From a virus, in IMG/VR virus record IMGVR_UViG_3300034104_003060, positions 1 through 23,885 of that record: a stretch of 23,885 nt of DNA; one strand, given 5' to 3'. Within the stretch, counting starts at the first letter, position 1. The number at the start of each line of letters is the position of its first letter. The position numbers and the translations under genes were made by a program. The notes under the pieces were generated by a model. That model made no database searches, was not told the DNA's origin, and saw only the letters and a list, made by a program, of their open reading frames with translations. Positions 6,068 through 23,457 of this stretch are shown here, in pieces.

Positions 6068-6727
6068 TTATTTTCCAAAATCTTCATCATTGTCCCAAAC
6101 ATTAAATGAATCTTCAATTTCGTTTGGTGAGTATTCTTCAACATCATCTGTTGTTAATACATATTCATTTTTACCAGTTTTCTCCATCTCGTCTTGTTTG
6201 TCGGCAAAGAAATCTGATAATTTTTGTTTAAATGGTCCAGAATCTAAACTTCTTAATTCTAATTTTTCTTGAGCTGTTTTTGGTCTATATTTTTCAACCT
6301 TTTGTTCAAGTGAATTAAGTGAAGATACAATATTGTCCATTTCTTTTAATTTGTCTTCCAAACCTTGAATTTGTTTGAACAGGTTATCAAAGTATTCTTC
6401 TTGTTTAGTTTCAATATTTTTTTGAGAATTTACTAAATCCGTAATATCTAATTCTTCTGACTCCTCATCTTCTTTTCCAACTTCTTCAACATCAGGATCT
6501 GTTGCTGTATCTATTGGTGTTGGTCCCGCAGCAGCCGCATCTGGAGCTGGAGCTGGAGCACCACCTGGAGGAGGAGGAACATCACCACCTGGAGGAGGAG
6601 GAACATCACCACCTAGAGGAGGAGGAACATCACCACCTGGAGGAGGGGGAACTTCTTGTTCATTTATGTATCTATTAATATTTCTATATCTAGAAATTTC
6701 ATCTAATATTTTTTGTTCGATGCTCAT
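6068..6727 (-). CDS. Acidic protein with PPPPGGDV repeats and coiled coil, unknown function
   Basis: A 219-residue protein not recognised as a named family. Residues 1-24 are a polar helix (SRYRNINRYINEQ). Residues 26-56 are four copies of an eight-residue VPPPPGGD unit, one with Leu for Pro, followed by an Ala/Pro linker (57-75). Residues 78-95 are very acidic, about 97-150 are heptad-like and predict a coiled coil (KQIQGLEDKLKEMDNIVSS), and the C-terminus is again acidic. The modular layout fits an elongated virion or assembly-scaffold component, and it is the last gene of the structural block, but its role is not known. The start two bases before the upstream stop and the terminator right after the stop define the gene well. 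Confidence 0.8.
   Translation of the reverse strand: MSIEQKILDEISRYRNINRYINEQEVPPPPGGDVPPPLGGDVPPPPGGDVPPPPGGAPAPAPDAAAAGPTPIDTATDPDVEEVGKEDEESEELDITDLVNSQKNIETKQEEYFDNLFKQIQGLEDKLKEMDNIVSSLNSLEQKVEKYRPKTAQEKLELRSLDSGPFKQKLSDFFADKQDEMEKTGKNEYVLTTDDVEEYSPNEIEDSFNVWDNDEDFGK
6560..6652 (-). repeat. Tandem 24-bp repeat encoding VPPPPGGD units
   Basis: Nearly four copies of a 24-base unit that reads accacctggaggaggagg plus aacatc on the plus strand. Differences are few (one cctagagga, one gaggggga), so the copies are recent and probably vary in number by slippage. Confidence 0.9.
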
Positions 6728-13884: not shown

Positions 13885-16800
13885 TTAATTAAATTTTACT
13901 TTTTTATTAAATGTTTTATTAAAATTTCCATTTGTATTACTGTATACACTTTTCATAATACTCTTTTTTTCGTTTTTATCAACAGTTACTTCTGTAGTAT
14001 ATGCTAACTTGGTCTCTACAGTTTCTAATTCAAACTTGTCGTAAATTAAATATTCTGGACTTGCTTGGTATTCATCAAATTTTTTAATTTCAGCATCAAA
14101 CTCTTCTTTATATAATTTCTTTAAATCTTCCAAAGTTTTTTTAATTTCATTTTCTAAGTATGTATTTAATTTTACTTTTTCCAAGTTTAATAATTCATTT
14201 GAAAAAATTTGATATTTTTCTTCATTTACAAATGTATCGGCATACATCATATAAAATCTACAGTTTTCTGTTCCCGTTAATTTTTCTGAAATAGGATAAA
14301 ATGATGTTTCATCTTTTATATAGTTTTCAGAAAAAGAAATTTCAGTTGTAATTAATAATTGTTCAAATTTATTTAAGGATTCACCAACTTTATTTTTATA
14401 TAAATCGACCATTTTAGAAAAATCAGAAACACCATCAATTTCAGTTAGTTCATATACTTTTACATCACCAGTATCTAGCTTTACACCATCAACACCATTT
14501 TTAATTCCGGTTGGTGATATTGTGTCATATAGAATTGCGTCAACTTTTTTAAGTGTCTGAACATATTCTTCTTGATATTTTGTCATTTCATTTATTGGTT
14601 CAATAACAAATTGATTTAAATCATTTTGTTTAGATTGTGTCAACGATTTTAATTTATCTCTAACTTCTCTAATTGCTGAATTTGGAATGTTTGGAACTAA
14701 TACTAACTTTGACATAATAGGATCTTTATCATCTTTAATATCTCCTATTACATTATTTGTTAAAGATTGTATTCTTTGTTCAACAAATTCCGGTTTACCA
14801 TAAATTTTTGTATTAATACCAGAGTTATCACTATAATCAAATATTTTTCCATCGACATAATTTTTTTCATAACCAACTAATTGTAATATTCCATAGTTAG
14901 TTGTATTTTGAATTGTTCTTAATTGATTGTTAATTGTTTTAAAATATTTGTTAGTATTATCTGATAATTCTTTAAATAATGCAATATATTCAATTTCTCC
15001 ACTTTGGATATTTCCATTATCTTCTAAAATTGTTGTAAGTATATTTCCAATAGCATCACCACCTTTTTGAGGTATTTGATTATCTACAGAGTTTGTTGAA
15101 ACTGTATTTTGTCTTTTTAATATTTGTTCAACAACATATTTGTCCCTAGCTGAAACATCTTCGGTTGGCGTTGCTCTTTCATCATAAATTTCTGTATTTG
15201 CATAATAATTAAACGAAAGTGCGTTTTGAAGTTGTTCAACTGGTTCTTTAAGTCCCATACCACCGATAATATTAAATGCCATTGTAACATTTGCAATCAT
15301 AGGTTGTATTCCAATTCCTTCTGGGTTTAAATCATATAATAATGGTTCATATGAAATATCTAAACTTGTTGGTACAATTTTACTATGATAAAAATCTCCA
15401 ACCCTTAATACTAATATTGGTGGTGCACCAAAAGATGTGTTTAGCGCATCATTATATTTTGGTCTTCCATCTGTTCCAATAACTGGTATTGTTTGACCCG
15501 GTCTCATACACTGATTTAAAAATGTTAATCTAGCATTCAAACCTTCCGGTGTCATCGAATGGAAAGCTGGACTAAAATATTTAATTTTCTCTTTAAATGT
15601 GTCGTATACCATAGGATTTGTTTCTTTAATCACTTGGAAATAGTCGCATTCAGAAAATAATTGTCTAAGAACTTTTTTAGAAATTCCTTCTTTTATTTTT
15701 TGTTGTATATCAACACTTGGTATTGGTTTTATTATTGTTAGTGTTTCACCAGTAATTGGTGGCGGTGGAGGTGTTGTTGTTGTAGTTGTTGTAATTGGTG
15801 GTGGTGGTGGAATTTCTGCTGATATTGCTTTTAAAATAACTCGTCTACAAGCCATTGCTGGTAACGAATTAACCACAGCATTAGCTGTTGCTTTGTTATT
15901 TGTTGTTTCTCTTGGTAAAACATTACAATTTACGGAATCAAAATTACCACCATTTTCCCCTTTTGGAATTGTTTCACCTTCACCTTTAGGTTCAATTTTA
16001 GTATAAAGAATTTGTTTTCCAATGTAATCTTTGTAAGATGTTCCATCAGAAAATTTTTGTTTTTCAATCCATTGTTGTACAGCACTAATTCTTCTTTGAG
16101 ATAATCTAACATTGTAATCCTCAGAAGCTACTGCTGATGCGGAACCTTGTAAGCTTATTTTAACAATTCCTTTTCTTTTAATAATAACTTCTTCCATTCC
16201 TTCCAAAAACTCCTTTGTCATTTTTGCGTAGTTTCCTTTAATAACATCATTGAAGAAGGTTGGTATTAAATCTTTATTATATGTTTTTTTGTCCGTTCCG
16301 CTTCCAACATAAACAGAAGTTGGTGCATTATTTATTGTTGGTTGGTAAAATTTATCTTCATATTCTTTAATATAAAATTCAAAATCAGTTCTTGCTGAAG
16401 TTGATGGTTCTCCAAACGGTATATCATTATAAAAATAAAACCCTACGCCGGCAAAATTTTTGAACGGGTCTATAAAGGTATCACTAGCACTAGTGTTTTC
16501 ATTACCACCAGTATTTTGTGTTTCAACTTTACTTTCTGGATCCTTAACCGGATTCTCGGCTGGAATATTTTTTAATACTTCACCATATTCCTCTTCAGTT
16601 AATCTTGGGTTATTTAAAATTTCTTGATATGTAAATAAATCTTTAGTTGGTATTGTATTAAATTTTATTCCCAATTCATATATATCATATTTCATACATC
16701 CAGCAAAAAATGAATCTACAATAGAGTCCAATCTTTCTTTTGGTATATTTGCTAGTTGTTTTTCAATAATTGTGTTTAATGATGATGGATTATCAACTAA

Positions 16801-18849
16801 AATTTTCCATTTTAAAGTACCACTTCTTGATGTGTTTTTATATGTATATATTGGTTCAGGTCTTCCAAGAAAACTTGTTGCGTTAAAATCTGGTTTTGAG
16901 TTATCACTAAATGATAAATCATAAGGTGGGAACCACATTATTCTACCACCATTTGGTCCTTTTTCACAAACTGGTAATTCATCATAAGTAAACCCTGGTC
17001 TATCAGATGTTCTCCAAGCAAGATTTTCTATTGAGAACATATATTTTTTAACTTTATTATCGACAATGTTTGTTGAACCAGGATTTCTTAATGGTGCTAT
17101 ATTTAAATTATACGTATTATCAAACACAGAATAACTAAACCCTCTACCGGCAGTTGTAATACCATCTGTTTTTTGTAAGTCAGCATATGTAAAATAAGGC
17201 GTATCTTTTTGGAATATACGACAATATTCAATACCGGCCTCTGTACCATCAGATTGATTTTTATATGAAAGTACTTGTGAACCTTTTGTTAATTCTTTAT
17301 AACCATCATTAAAAACTTTAGAAACTTGATTTATTGCGTTTCCAACATGTTTTAACCTAGCTTCACCTTGTAGATTATCTGCGGCTTCAATTAATCTTTG
17401 AGTTTGGTCTAATATTGAACCTTCTTTAAATGTAATATTTGTTGATAAATTTTTATTATAGTTAGCCTCAACAATATTAAATTCATTATCTAGGGATGTT
17501 GGTGCGCCACCAGGTGCAACGTGAAACCCAGCATTATCTTTATACTTTGGTGATGTCCAAACAAATTCACCGTCTATTGTTCCTGAATTTGTATATGATT
17601 TTGCTTTTAAACCAAAATTAATTTGAGTTTGATTTCCTTCATATAAAATACCAAGTTCTGATGGACCATAAACAAGTGTGTCAACTTGTTTTCCATCTGG
17701 TGCTACCGGTAATTGATTTGGTGGTGATTCAACTTTTGACGGGTCAACTGTTGAACTACCGACGTAATAACCACCTGTATTTGGTTTGTCTGGATTTAAT
17801 AAATTAGAAATGCCGGTTGTAATAGTTTGGATAATTCCTCTATTATAATCCGGTCTATATTTGTTATAATCTAGTGTTGAAAAAAGAGCTGATCTTTGTC
17901 CATTACCAGTATTTGCCACAAATATTTCAGATGGATTTCTATATTTGTTTAATATTGGTCCTAAGAATCCGCCGGTTAAATTATTTACAACATTAAGTGC
18001 TCCTTCGGCATTTGAATTTTTTGGTTCTGTATTATCAAAATAATCACCAGGAATAAATGACGCTGGGAAATAAGTTCCACTTAAACGATTAGCAAAACTA
18101 ACAGCTGCTGGAATTGGGTTTTCTGGAACTGTAATTCTCCAATTTTTTTCAACTAAAGGTTGTTTACCGGTTGCAATAAGTGATGCTGAAAAAGGATCCG
18201 AAAGTGAACTTAGATTAACTCTACCAATAGTTAATAATTCAACTTCTCTTGCAATTCTATCTTCAAAATATCCTTTTAATTGTGTTGCACCAATTTTTGC
18301 AATATATGAATCTTGCGATAAACTACCGCCACTACCACCAGGGTTTGAGCTAAATAATATGTCGTATGGACTATAAAAAGACGGGACAAATGTTGGTGGA
18401 TCCCAATATGGTAAATATAATTTTTGTGTTGCAACAATATCGGTTATTGTTGCCAAACTTTTAAAACCACCTTCTGGCCCATAATTATTTTGTATATATG
18501 CAGCGTCAATAAAAAATTCATTAGCCAAATCAATAACAGTATCATTTGGGTCGTAAGGACCTTTGTTTGATTCAACTGGAAGTGGTGGACCCGCTAAATT
18601 TAATGGTTTAGGAAAACCACCTTCTGGACCATATTCATTTAATGGATATAAATTATTTGCTTGATTGTTTGTACTTACTAAATCATTAGGTGAATCAATT
18701 ACATTAGAAACTGTCAAATTTGTCTCGTAGTTAATATTACTTGTTTGTGGTGAAAAACTTCCGGGTACATTATAAGGTGCTAAATTTCTAGCAATTAATG
18801 TATTTCTAAATGAAGATGATGAAGCAAATGACAAAAAACTTTCTGACAT
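13885..18849 (-). CDS. Giant baseplate protein with OmpA-like peptidoglycan-binding domain (1654 aa)
   Basis: A 1654-residue putative virion protein. The N-terminus is low in charge and contains two YGPEGGF copies (73-79, 123-129). Residues 634-690 (GGRIMWFPPY ... FLGRPEPIYTYKNTSR) and 1140-1226 (PILVLRVGDFYHSKIV ... GIGIQPMIANVTM ... IIGG) both resemble the tube/LysM-adaptor domains of contractile injection systems. Between them, 801-1009 is an OmpA/MotB-like domain: GVGFYFYNDIP opening, VKISLQGSASAVASEDYN, LSQRR (916-920), KGEGETIP, and CRRVIL (1001-1006). A rigid linker of five Pro, Ile, seven Thr and five Pro follows (1014-1031). The C-terminal third is Lys/Glu-rich and probably helical. 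Position before gp53 and after the tape measure supports a baseplate role. The OmpA call is strong; the flanking domain calls are tentative. Confidence 0.75.
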   Translation of the reverse strand: MSESFLSFASSSSFRNTLIARNLAPYNVPGSFSPQTSNINYETNLTVSNVIDSPNDLVSTNNQANNLYPLNEYGPEGGFPKPLNLAGPPLPVESNKGPYDPNDTVIDLANEFFIDAAYIQNNYGPEGGFKSLATITDIVATQKLYLPYWDPPTFVPSFYSPYDILFSSNPGGSGGSLSQDSYIAKIGATQLKGYFEDRIAREVELLTIGRVNLSSLSDPFSASLIATGKQPLVEKNWRITVPENPIPAAVSFANRLSGTYFPASFIPGDYFDNTEPKNSNAEGALNVVNNLTGGFLGPILNKYRNPSEIFVANTGNGQRSALFSTLDYNKYRPDYNRGIIQTITTGISNLLNPDKPNTGGYYVGSSTVDPSKVESPPNQLPVAPDGKQVDTLVYGPSELGILYEGNQTQINFGLKAKSYTNSGTIDGEFVWTSPKYKDNAGFHVAPGGAPTSLDNEFNIVEANYNKNLSTNITFKEGSILDQTQRLIEAADNLQGEARLKHVGNAINQVSKVFNDGYKELTKGSQVLSYKNQSDGTEAGIEYCRIFQKDTPYFTYADLQKTDGITTAGRGFSYSVFDNTYNLNIAPLRNPGSTNIVDNKVKKYMFSIENLAWRTSDRPGFTYDELPVCEKGPNGGRIMWFPPYDLSFSDNSKPDFNATSFLGRPEPIYTYKNTSRSGTLKWKILVDNPSSLNTIIEKQLANIPKERLDSIVDSFFAGCMKYDIYELGIKFNTIPTKDLFTYQEILNNPRLTEEEYGEVLKNIPAENPVKDPESKVETQNTGGNENTSASDTFIDPFKNFAGVGFYFYNDIPFGEPSTSARTDFEFYIKEYEDKFYQPTINNAPTSVYVGSGTDKKTYNKDLIPTFFNDVIKGNYAKMTKEFLEGMEEVIIKRKGIVKISLQGSASAVASEDYNVRLSQRRISAVQQWIEKQKFSDGTSYKDYIGKQILYTKIEPKGEGETIPKGENGGNFDSVNCNVLPRETTNNKATANAVVNSLPAMACRRVILKAISAEIPPPPPITTTTTTTPPPPPITGETLTIIKPIPSVDIQQKIKEGISKKVLRQLFSECDYFQVIKETNPMVYDTFKEKIKYFSPAFHSMTPEGLNARLTFLNQCMRPGQTIPVIGTDGRPKYNDALNTSFGAPPILVLRVGDFYHSKIVPTSLDISYEPLLYDLNPEGIGIQPMIANVTMAFNIIGGMGLKEPVEQLQNALSFNYYANTEIYDERATPTEDVSARDKYVVEQILKRQNTVSTNSVDNQIPQKGGDAIGNILTTILEDNGNIQSGEIEYIALFKELSDNTNKYFKTINNQLRTIQNTTNYGILQLVGYEKNYVDGKIFDYSDNSGINTKIYGKPEFVEQRIQSLTNNVIGDIKDDKDPIMSKLVLVPNIPNSAIREVRDKLKSLTQSKQNDLNQFVIEPINEMTKYQEEYVQTLKKVDAILYDTISPTGIKNGVDGVKLDTGDVKVYELTEIDGVSDFSKMVDLYKNKVGESLNKFEQLLITTEISFSENYIKDETSFYPISEKLTGTENCRFYMMYADTFVNEEKYQIFSNELLNLEKVKLNTYLENEIKKTLEDLKKLYKEEFDAEIKKFDEYQASPEYLIYDKFELETVETKLAYTTEVTVDKNEKKSIMKSVYSNTNGNFNKTFNKKVKFN

Positions 18850-20922: not shown

Positions 20923-21078
20923 CTATGTTTTGGGTTTGTTTTCTTCAATAATCTTTTCGACCAAGTATTTTCTTACATAGGTGGGTATTTTTAAAAATTC
21001 AGAATATTGCATTCTAAGGAATTTGGATAAAATATAAAATTCATCCAACATATATTGTGAGTAATTAGAAGAAAGGCC
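20923..21078 (-). CDS. Frameshift extension of the gp26-like tail-assembly protein
   Basis: An open stretch of 51 codons plus TAG that begins inside the 3' end of the gp26-like gene in another frame (+1, equivalent to -2). It encodes GLSSNYSQY and then 42 residues starting at an internal ATG (21049-21051). The peptide includes FLRMQYSEFLKIPTYVRKYL and a charged end, EKIIEENKPKT. The short Y-S-E-F-x-x-I-P-x-x-x-R pattern is like the T-part of tail-assembly chaperones that is added by frameshifting just before tape measure genes. It might instead be an independent 42-residue protein, but its ATG has no good leader and lies 13 bases after the upstream stop. The fusion reading is preferred because of position and the slippery site. 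Confidence 0.65.
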   Translation of the reverse strand, partial: GLSSNYSQYMLDEFYILSKFLRMQYSEFLKIPTYVRKYLVEKIIEENKPKT

Positions 21079-21829
21079 GAAAAAATTCCACCCCAAAAGT
21101 AATGTTTGCCATTACTTTTTCTCCAGACGGGGCCATAACTTCTTTATTTAAATCTAATCTTGGTTCATTTTCTCTTAAAAAATTTCTAATGAACTTTGAA
21201 TCAGCAATTGGCATATTTTCAGAAAAAATTGCAATTTTTCCTTTATCCGTATCACCATTTAATTCAATAATATTTTTTGCTAGTCTCCAAGTAACTGTAG
21301 GTGGTATACGACCTTCTGGGTATGAGTTAATCATTTTATCAATTTCCATTTGTTCAACAAGGGAAAGCAATTTTAATTTAACAGTAGATTTCGACCTAGG
21401 TAATGTTACAATAAAATTTCCATTTTCATCTGGTTTTTGTTCAGTTCTTTTAATGTTTAATTCATCTAACAAAACAGATGTTGTAAAAAACTTATCTGTT
21501 GATGGATCTGTTAATGAAACATTATATTCAGGACCAAAAGATGTATTTCTTAAAAATAAAAGAATTGCCTCAACATCACCTTCCAATAATTCTTCCGGTC
21601 TTAAATCTTTTTCATAAATTTTTGATCTTAATAATGGAAGAATTAATGATTCTCTAATACTCTTTTTTAAATTTGTATTTATTAAAATATTTTCATCTGT
21701 GGCTGTCAAATAACCAACTTTAACAGCTTTTTTATTTGAGTTGTAAAAAATTCCACCACTTGGTAACTGGACTAAATCGTGTGGTAAATTAAAATCTTGT
21801 TGACCTATTTGATATTCATTCATTTCCAT
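21065..21829 (-). CDS. 26: gp26-like baseplate hub / tail assembly chaperone
   Basis: A 254-residue protein (from the ATG at 21829) resembling T4 gp26-type hub subunits. Near the N-terminus is LPHDLVQLPSGGIFY, followed by DENILINTNLKKS, a segment with RPEELLEGDVEAILLFLRNTSFGPEY, and a helical C-terminal half. This LPS-G and GDxxxxLLxxR layout is shared by gp26-like proteins. In related tails it helps load the tape measure or assemble the hub and is not a major virion part. An earlier in-frame ATG at 21856 adds MDIFIIKKI; the later start is preferred because a TTTTTATAA motif lies 11 nt before it, as at neighbouring genes. The end of the gene contains a likely frameshift site that extends the protein by 51 residues. 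The gp26 assignment is moderate. Confidence 0.75.
   Translation of the reverse strand: MEMNEYQIGQQDFNLPHDLVQLPSGGIFYNSNKKAVKVGYLTATDENILINTNLKKSIRESLILPLLRSKIYEKDLRPEELLEGDVEAILLFLRNTSFGPEYNVSLTDPSTDKFFTTSVLLDELNIKRTEQKPDENGNFIVTLPRSKSTVKLKLLSLVEQMEIDKMINSYPEGRIPPTVTWRLAKNIIELNGDTDKGKIAIFSENMPIADSKFIRNFLRENEPRLDLNKEVMAPSGEKVMANITFGVEFFRPFF
21079..21085 (-). other. Putative programmed frameshift site TTT TTT C(GG)
   Basis: The gp26-like frame reads GAA TTT TTT CGG, five codons before its stop. A Phe tRNA on the second TTT can slip forward one base onto TTC, its best match, while the CGG Arg codon, probably rare in such AT-rich DNA, slows decoding. A -2 slip on the T run reaches the same frame. 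Confidence 0.55.
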
Positions 21830-21930: not shown

Positions 21931-22419
21931 TTAGTAAACTAATATACATCTATCCATACGAATACTTGATGTAATTCCCGCAATTTTATCACTTGAATAA
22001 TCTAGGGACCCACCATCATATCCTGTTAAAAATGCACCTTCTAAAATCCATTTCTCAACAACAACACCGGTTGGGTCAAGCATTTCAAGGTCAACATTCT
22101 TTTTATATCCGGCAGCATAACCCATACGACCAGTTACAGATTCAGCACATAGACGAATCCATTCCATAACCGCTTGTGAAGCTGATGGACCAATTGGGTC
22201 TCTAAACTTAACCGAAATTTCTTCCCAGTTAAATCTACCAGCAACATAGGTTGAGGTGTTCAAAAATGGAATTTCTGTTGAAGCAATTTTCATTTTTGGT
22301 CTTGAGGTACTTTCTACATACCACTCATTTATTCCTAATGACGATGGAAATCTCAAAATCCATCTGTTCTCCCTTTTCGGTTCGTAAGGTATAGGCATTT
22401 TCATTAACAAATCAGCCAT
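21931..22419 (-). CDS. 19: Tail tube protein, T4 gp19-like
   Basis: A 162-residue protein almost the same length as T4 gp19 (163). It forms the hexameric rings of the inner tail tube. Family hallmarks are all visible: PKRENRWILRFP near the N-terminus, IPFLNTSTYVAGRFNWEEI (about 50-68), a DPIGPSASQ turn (about 74-82), the GRMGYAAGYKK segment (about 97-107), LDPTGVVVEKW, and the C-terminal GGSLDYSSDKI block. It is followed by a terminator and preceded by a TATTTATAA motif and an A-rich, Shine-Dalgarno-free leader of about 35 bases. That organisation suits a highly expressed late gene. Confidence 0.95.
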   Translation of the reverse strand: MADLLMKMPIPYEPKRENRWILRFPSSLGINEWYVESTSRPKMKIASTEIPFLNTSTYVAGRFNWEEISVKFRDPIGPSASQAVMEWIRLCAESVTGRMGYAAGYKKNVDLEMLDPTGVVVEKWILEGAFLTGYDGGSLDYSSDKIAGITSSIRMDRCILVY

Positions 22420-22491: not shown

Positions 22492-23457
22492 TTACTTTGA
22501 TTTAATTTTGGATATTATCCTATTAATTAAACTTTCTAACATAAGTTCTTCTTCACTTTCTTCTTTTTCATTTCCAGTTTCTATATGAATTTTTGAATAT
22601 CCTCCTTCTGATGTATCATAAATTATGAATTTTACTTCTGGATACATTCTTGATAATTCATTTTTTACATACTCAACCATTGCTTTTATATTTCTTGGGT
22701 CATCATCTGAAAATCCTAATGAAGTATTAATATATTTTCCACTTTTAATTAAATCATCATATTTTGAAATGAAATCGGCAAGGGCAATTTTTTTTGCGTG
22801 CTCAGGATTTGCCGCTCCGCCACTTGTCTCTAATCCGAATTTTTCACCAAACTCTTTTGAAGAAACCGGGTAGTAATCCCCTCTCTCATCTAAATAAAAA
22901 TCTAATAATTGATTTGGGGATAAATCATCTAATTTTTCTAAAAAGTTTTTTGAAAACATTTCTTCGTGTTCAAAAGTTCTTTTAATATTTTCTATCATTT
23001 CTTCTTTTTCTTCCGGTGACAAAACTAAATGTATAAACATTTTAACACCTTTTTTAATTACGTTTGGACTATGTCCTCTAGCGGTAATAATTGAAAATGG
23101 GTTAGCATATATTAAATTTTCTTTAAACTTTTTAAAACTTGGTGATTTTCTATCTTTTTTAATTGCTTCTACGGTGTCTTCTAAAAATGTTTCGGAACTT
23201 GTAAAATCTCTATATGGGTTGTTGTCATATCCAACTATTGTGTCCCCTTCATAATCAAAAGGTTCGTTTCCAATCAAATGTCTGTATTCCGCAAAATCTT
23301 CTGTCGACATTCCAATAACATCCCCAAGGTCAGATTTTAAATATATTTTAGTTGGCATTCTCAAAATATTATCATCCCAATCAAAACCATATAAACGTAG
23401 ATTTTTTTTCTCTACCATTTCTTTTATAATCTGTCTAACTAAAATTTTGTGATTCAT
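22492..23457 (-). CDS. HAD-superfamily phosphatase-like protein
   Basis: A 321-residue protein with the signature of haloacid-dehalogenase-type hydrolases. Motif I is LYGFDWDDN, with likely nucleophile Asp26 and acid/base Asp28. Motif II is FSIITARG (121-128, Thr125). A motif III lysine is probably K222 or K223 in NPEHAKKIALADF. Motif IV is LGFSDDDPRN (247-256, Asp251-253). The catalytic set is complete, so it should remove phosphate from a small molecule, nucleic acid end or protein. The last 30 residues are a charged helix. It lies between tail sheath and tail tube genes, an unusual place for an enzyme. Its substrate is unknown. A motif TATTTATGA 13 nt before the start suggests separate transcription after the sheath terminator. 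Confidence 0.8.
   Translation of the reverse strand: MNHKILVRQIIKEMVEKKNLRLYGFDWDDNILRMPTKIYLKSDLGDVIGMSTEDFAEYRHLIGNEPFDYEGDTIVGYDNNPYRDFTSSETFLEDTVEAIKKDRKSPSFKKFKENLIYANPFSIITARGHSPNVIKKGVKMFIHLVLSPEEKEEMIENIKRTFEHEEMFSKNFLEKLDDLSPNQLLDFYLDERGDYYPVSSKEFGEKFGLETSGGAANPEHAKKIALADFISKYDDLIKSGKYINTSLGFSDDDPRNIKAMVEYVKNELSRMYPEVKFIIYDTSEGGYSKIHIETGNEKEESEEELMLESLINRIISKIKSK

Follow-up and report, generated by a model that had tools for sequence, protein, structure and literature searches.

A programmed +1 frameshift probably joins a T4 gp26-like protein to its C-terminal extension in a putative tail assembly chaperone locus

In a virus record of 23,885 bases (the window, which is the whole stretch of DNA analysed), the locus between the tail tube gene and the gene in the tape measure position very probably encodes a tail assembly chaperone pair through programmed +1 ribosomal frameshifting. 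Two overlapping frames sit between these genes (Table 1), with the tail sheath and tail tube genes upstream of the gp26-like gene and the tape-measure-position gene downstream. Minus-strand positions 21094-21065 read GGG GTG GAA, then TTT TTT CGG, then CCT TTC TTC TAA, and a gap of 27 nt separates the +1-frame stop from the ATG (20895) of the next gene. The first-pass annotation had proposed a programmed frameshift in a tail assembly chaperone at this place; its coordinates, codons and lengths (the VEFFRPFF end, TTT TTT CGG and the 51-codon frame) were all exact, and its central claim is supported by the conserved frame, site and coding signature described here. It missed the relationship to the family of both T4 gp26 and gp51, the RF2-like helpers (G-rich element and rare A-site codon) and the relatives with a -1 arrangement. 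It also took the next gene to be that of the tape measure protein, which agrees with its position and with annotated relatives, while the product itself has no family match in the window's Pfam/PHROG-type profile comparison.

Table 1. Features of the putative frameshift locus, in window coordinates.
Feature	Position	Strand	Remarks
Tail tube protein gene, preceding the gp26-like gene	21931-22419	-	phrog_4542 tail tube, E=1.1e-23
gp26-like gene, short form ('G') of the putative chaperone	21065-21829	-	zero frame; C-terminus ...GVEFFRPFF*
G-rich Shine-Dalgarno-like element GGG GTG GAA, GGGGTGGAA	21086-21094	-	ends 3 nt from the slipping codon
TTT TTT	21080-21085	-	second TTT (21082-21080) is the proposed P-site codon
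TTC, landing codon proposed for the tRNA-Phe +1 slip	21081-21079	-	overlaps the second TTT
CGG, rare codon for the A site	21077-21079	-	first base C permits TTT to TTC re-pairing
TAA, zero-frame stop of the short form	21065-21067	-	
+1-frame extension ('T' domain), 51 codons plus stop, GLSSNYSQYMLDEFYILSKFLRMQYSEFLKIPTYVRKYLVEKIIEENKPKT	20923-21078	-	first codon GGC (21078), stop 20925-20923
Next gene, presumed tape measure protein, 657 aa	18922-20895	-	assigned from position, cf. annotated relatives

Scanning IMG/VR and named phages gathered about 200 loci, from which 159 distinct relatives were kept (less than 90% identical, near copies removed). The long frame is +1 only in 132 of these, in both directions in 20 and -1 only in 6, with one locus incomplete. 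The +1 frame is open past the zero-frame stop in 152 of the 159, and in each of the 147 +1-type relatives whose end can be read it continues for 41 codons or more (median 63), while a -1 frame of at least 40 codons past the stop is present in 10 of 150; these counts treat related loci as separate, so independence is overstated. The +1 frame extends past the stop much more than chance would allow. As the first-pass annotation had anticipated, homologues conserve the shifted frame together with the T run and its following C (mostly as CGG), and in +1-type relatives no stop interrupts the +1 frame over the T run. Among the extensions of the window's clade, codons that differ by a single base are synonymous in 171 cases and non-synonymous in 40 when read in the +1 frame, against 46:212 and 20:249 in the other two frames; judged from these substitutions, the added peptide evolves as a protein in the +1 frame only. 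The same arrangement is found in Microcystis phage Mel-JY01, Flavobacterium phage immuto, Bacillus phage SP-15, Listeria phage LIS04, Streptococcus phage GXN1 and Rhodothermus phage RM378, and none of these six named phages carries a frameshift annotation.

An error in sequencing, or the decay of a gene into halves that have ceased to cooperate, would explain the broken frame itself and nothing further. The probability of either is negligible, and both are refuted by the letter-for-letter identity of GAATTTTTTCGGCCTTTCTTCTAATTA in four independently assembled contigs of close relatives (L001-L004), together with purifying selection on the arrangement in about 150 relatives, the extension being conserved in both sets.

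Translation of the extension as a separate small protein of 42 residues, from a start of its own such as the in-frame ATG that the window has at the tenth extension codon, would be consistent with the separate small ORF annotated there in several relatives. We found no sign of such a product, which the first-pass annotation had raised as an alternative, and consider it very improbable: the window's ATG is not preceded by a Shine-Dalgarno sequence (duplex +2.0 kcal/mol), the first half of the extension contains no ATG in 44 of 147 relatives, a start with a Shine-Dalgarno sequence is absent in 101 of the 147, and in 9 relatives the tested stretch is without any ATG, GTG or TTG. The coding signal begins at the shift site itself, from which the frame codes directly (FF/GLSS.. 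conserved), and the T4 counterpart, gp51, is a single polypeptide with both parts.

The shift site is conserved at the level of nucleotides. The second Phe codon is TTT in all 75 loci of the window's clade, compared with 539 of 699 Phe codons elsewhere in the same genes, and the codon that follows is CGN in 75/75 and CGG in 38, although the same genes otherwise use AGA, with CGN at 86 and CGG at 2 of 714 Arg codons ('rare' is judged here by phage codon use, which may not match that of the host). In the sister clade (clade B) the site is TTT TTT TGG; the second codon is TTT in 59 of 65 members and CTT in five, whose CTT TGG carries the RF2 slip codon. Upstream of the T run, the window's clade is similarly biased towards G-ending codons relative to the rest of the same genes, with Gly as GGG in 64/67 (101/959 elsewhere), Val as GTG in 32/61 (133/1139) and Glu as GAG in 29/63 (262/1418). 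Pairing of this upstream element with the anti-Shine-Dalgarno tail of 16S rRNA is -6.15 kcal/mol, compared with -4.33 (sd 0.20) in synonymous resampling, the lowest of 200 resamplings being -4.79. Its pairing is weak in the sister clade (-2.70, with a background of -0.77), so the element can be no more than a helper specific to one clade.

No conserved downstream structure was found at the shift site. RNA folded from the window region has moderate stability (z -2.34), its stems overlapping the slip site or beginning about 30 nt downstream, and none of these stems was seen beyond the closest relatives. A downstream stimulatory hairpin was rejected as part of the explanation for the window, which has none in that place. 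Strong GC-rich downstream hairpins occur in 14 of 64 clade B loci (shuffled mean 0.65) and in 7 of 75 loci of the CGN group (1.29), and those of clade B are possible +1 stimulators. They lie a few bases past TTT TTT TGG (L030, L034, L036, L054, L056, L060, L062, L067, L075, L076, L083, L086, L094 and L098), with arms that differ in sequence (GCGGGC/GCCCGC, GCCGGT/ACCGGC, GCCGCC/GGCGGC).

As to direction, the first-pass annotation had left +1 and -2 side by side, and comparison of the relatives indicates that +1 is the most likely. A -2 shift would give the same fusion with one extra Phe (VEFFF-GLSS) and is known from phage Mu (PMC5009743). The TTTTTT of the window and the sites of 143 of 151 relatives would let tRNA-Phe re-pair two bases back, whereas eight +1-frame relatives have TTC TTT C, in which a -2 slip lands on TCT and re-pairing is impossible. 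Forward re-pairing is allowed in 149 of 151 +1 members at the codon tested and in one further locus (L013) at the neighbouring codon. Only a +1 shift makes sense of the C or T conserved at the start of the following codon and of the enrichment in rare CGG. At the RF2 site, a +1 case, a Shine-Dalgarno-like element is likewise spaced 3 nt from the slip codon, and we regard -2 shifting as unlikely. One +1 member, Listeria phage LIS04 (L016:3700-3729), keeps the extension with TTT TTT AGT, where +1 re-pairing would be poor.

Slippage of the polymerase on the T run, yielding mixed mRNAs, would draw on the runs of 6-8 T present in most members. Runs of six are short for polymerase slippage, and fifteen +1 members in which the run is three T or fewer (TTC TTT C, TTT CTT TGG, TTT CTA) keep the extension, which speaks against transcriptional slippage, a very improbable reading.

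Ribosomal +1 frameshifting would proceed as follows. Most ribosomes would reach the stop of the gp26-like gene and release the short form. Some would pause while the second TTT occupies the P site and the slow, rare CGG the A site, and in a fraction of them tRNA-Phe (anticodon GAA) could shift one base ahead from UUU to the better-matched UUC, with reading resumed at GGC. The G-rich stretch 3 nt upstream may pair with the 16S rRNA tail and put forward strain on the ribosome, as in the gene for release factor 2. The long product would carry a helical T domain of 51 residues after the short form, and, as in lambda, both forms would cover the tape measure protein and bring in subunits of the tail tube. 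We infer the shift itself, the preference for +1 over -2, its efficiency and the effect of the stimulators from the sequences; the chaperone role is suggested by family, position and the analogy with lambda.

In a minority of relatives the extension lies in the -1 frame. The classical -1 heptamer T_TTT_TTC occurs together with a -1 extension in L014, L017 (Atu_ph07), L018 (PA5oct), L107, L109, L119 and L122. A T-domain profile built from +1 members only finds six of the -1 extensions at E 9.5e-28 to 8.9e-8 and gives weak matches to those of L017 and L018 (6e-4 and 2e-3); the peptide is thus kept as a C-terminal extension whichever the direction of the shift. The tree of the short form implies three changes of direction, and well supported branches force two of them. 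A further clade B member (L057:3230-3256) has TTC TTC TGG and a clear T domain in the -1 frame without the T_TTT_TTC heptamer. In three Pseudomonas, Xanthomonas and Rhizobium phages (L015, L019, L020) the short form ends TTT CCC TAA and is followed by a +1 extension, an ending that resembles the CCC_UGA +1 sites of Listeria phages; the T-domain profile detects no relation to the extensions of L015 and L019.

The zero-frame protein of the window matches PF12322 (T4_baseplate; E=4.3e-7, 30.3 bits against a curated cut-off of 24.5) and phrog_150 (baseplate hub; E=2.7e-12), and T4 gp26 and gp51 each match both of these families. When an HMM built from the 159 relatives was run on 17 kb of T4 and 49 kb of cyanophage syn9, gp26 (3.7e-5) and gp51 (0.0097) were the sole significant matches, with no detectable member in the syn9 stretch. 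The fused family aligns with T4 gp51 over its whole length, C-terminal domain included (hhalign 94%, E 8.9e-8), and the C-terminal part alone at hhalign 58%. This profile alignment bears out the likeness to a chaperone T-part noticed in the first-pass annotation; the likeness appears in profile-profile comparison only, a plain HMM search with the T-domain profile giving no significant match to gp51. Two fused relatives (L175, L200) match phrog_150 end to end. The AlphaFold model of the fusion has a pLDDT of 85.5, the T domain is modelled as two helices (pLDDT about 80-89 over most of the domain), and the structures nearest to the model are those of hub and hub-assembly chaperone proteins. Searches of the PDB by sequence and by fold returned no match, as did tblastn of the extension alone against named phages, and a BrxL_N match of the extension (E 0.002, under the cut-off) is regarded as chance. 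The best reading of these comparisons is that the fused product would be the counterpart of T4 gp51 and the short form that of gp26.

The arrangement resembles lambda G/GT and its counterparts in P2, Mu and archaeal viruses, in which one gene just before the tape measure gene gives a short and a frameshifted long form, the shift site lying in the final codons of the short form. The window differs from lambda G/GT in that its protein is of the T4 gp26 family, and in direction: lambda shifts -1 and Mu -2, whereas the window most likely shifts +1 at TTT_TTT_CGG with an RF2-like upstream element. With T4 it shares the protein family (PF12322, phrog_150), and differs in being one gene, whereas T4 has two separate genes and no frameshift; as T4 genes 51 and 26 lie on opposite strands, the T4 long form is made from its own gene. 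The putative mechanism is closest to that of RF2 (prfB), where likewise the P-site tRNA slips forward, the A-site codon is slow and a Shine-Dalgarno-like element lies 3 nt before the slip codon. The slow codon of prfB is UGA and here it is the rare sense codon CGG (TGG in the sister clade), and, unlike in RF2, no autoregulation is implied at the window's site. Phage Adele and its relatives (Vandenendeviridae/Andersonviridae) have chaperones made by -1 frameshifting at GTTTTT (PMC12846349); they also have contractile tails, a conserved T-rich slip site and an extension annotated as a separate ORF, and are likened to the window by site and arrangement, the direction of the shift being different.

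Tailed phages have been described as using -1, -2 and +1 shifts, with T4 named as the exception, and the same source judges +1 very likely for the archaeal myovirus HSTV-2 (PMC5009743). Vladimirov et al. 2022 (PMID 34826709) reportedly identify the chaperones of T4-like phages and argue for a mechanism other than frameshifting there. A literature search that reached few subscription papers gave no earlier description of +1 shifting for the gp26 family; the kind of system is known and its +1 variant in this family is apparently undescribed. A more general reading, towards which we lean slightly, is that the T4 gp26/gp51 family would mostly shift +1 by an RF2 type of mechanism (a UUU_Y slip, slow CGG or UGG, and a clade-specific upstream G-rich element or downstream hairpin), with +1 and -1 switched at least twice on homologous Phe-Phe codons and T4 using two genes instead. 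If true, the T4 lineage would come under the rule, general among long-tailed phages, that a single gene supplies both a short and a long tail chaperone, and the family would offer a large natural collection of +1 sites in addition to those of prfB and antizyme, as well as a natural experiment in which one Phe-Phe codon pair is tuned for a forward or a backward shift. Many phage records would then contain a truncated chaperone and a spurious small ORF.

Three other minus-strand genes of the window were noted in passing. Between the sheath and tail tube genes, 22492-23457 encodes a 321-residue protein with the motif LYGFDWDDNIL, which recalls HAD-type phosphatases, its family matches being weak. 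The product of 6068-6727 has repeated PPPPGGDV units near its N-terminus, and a 1654-residue tail-module protein (13885-18849) contains a sub-threshold OmpA-like stretch (893-959, E 0.003).
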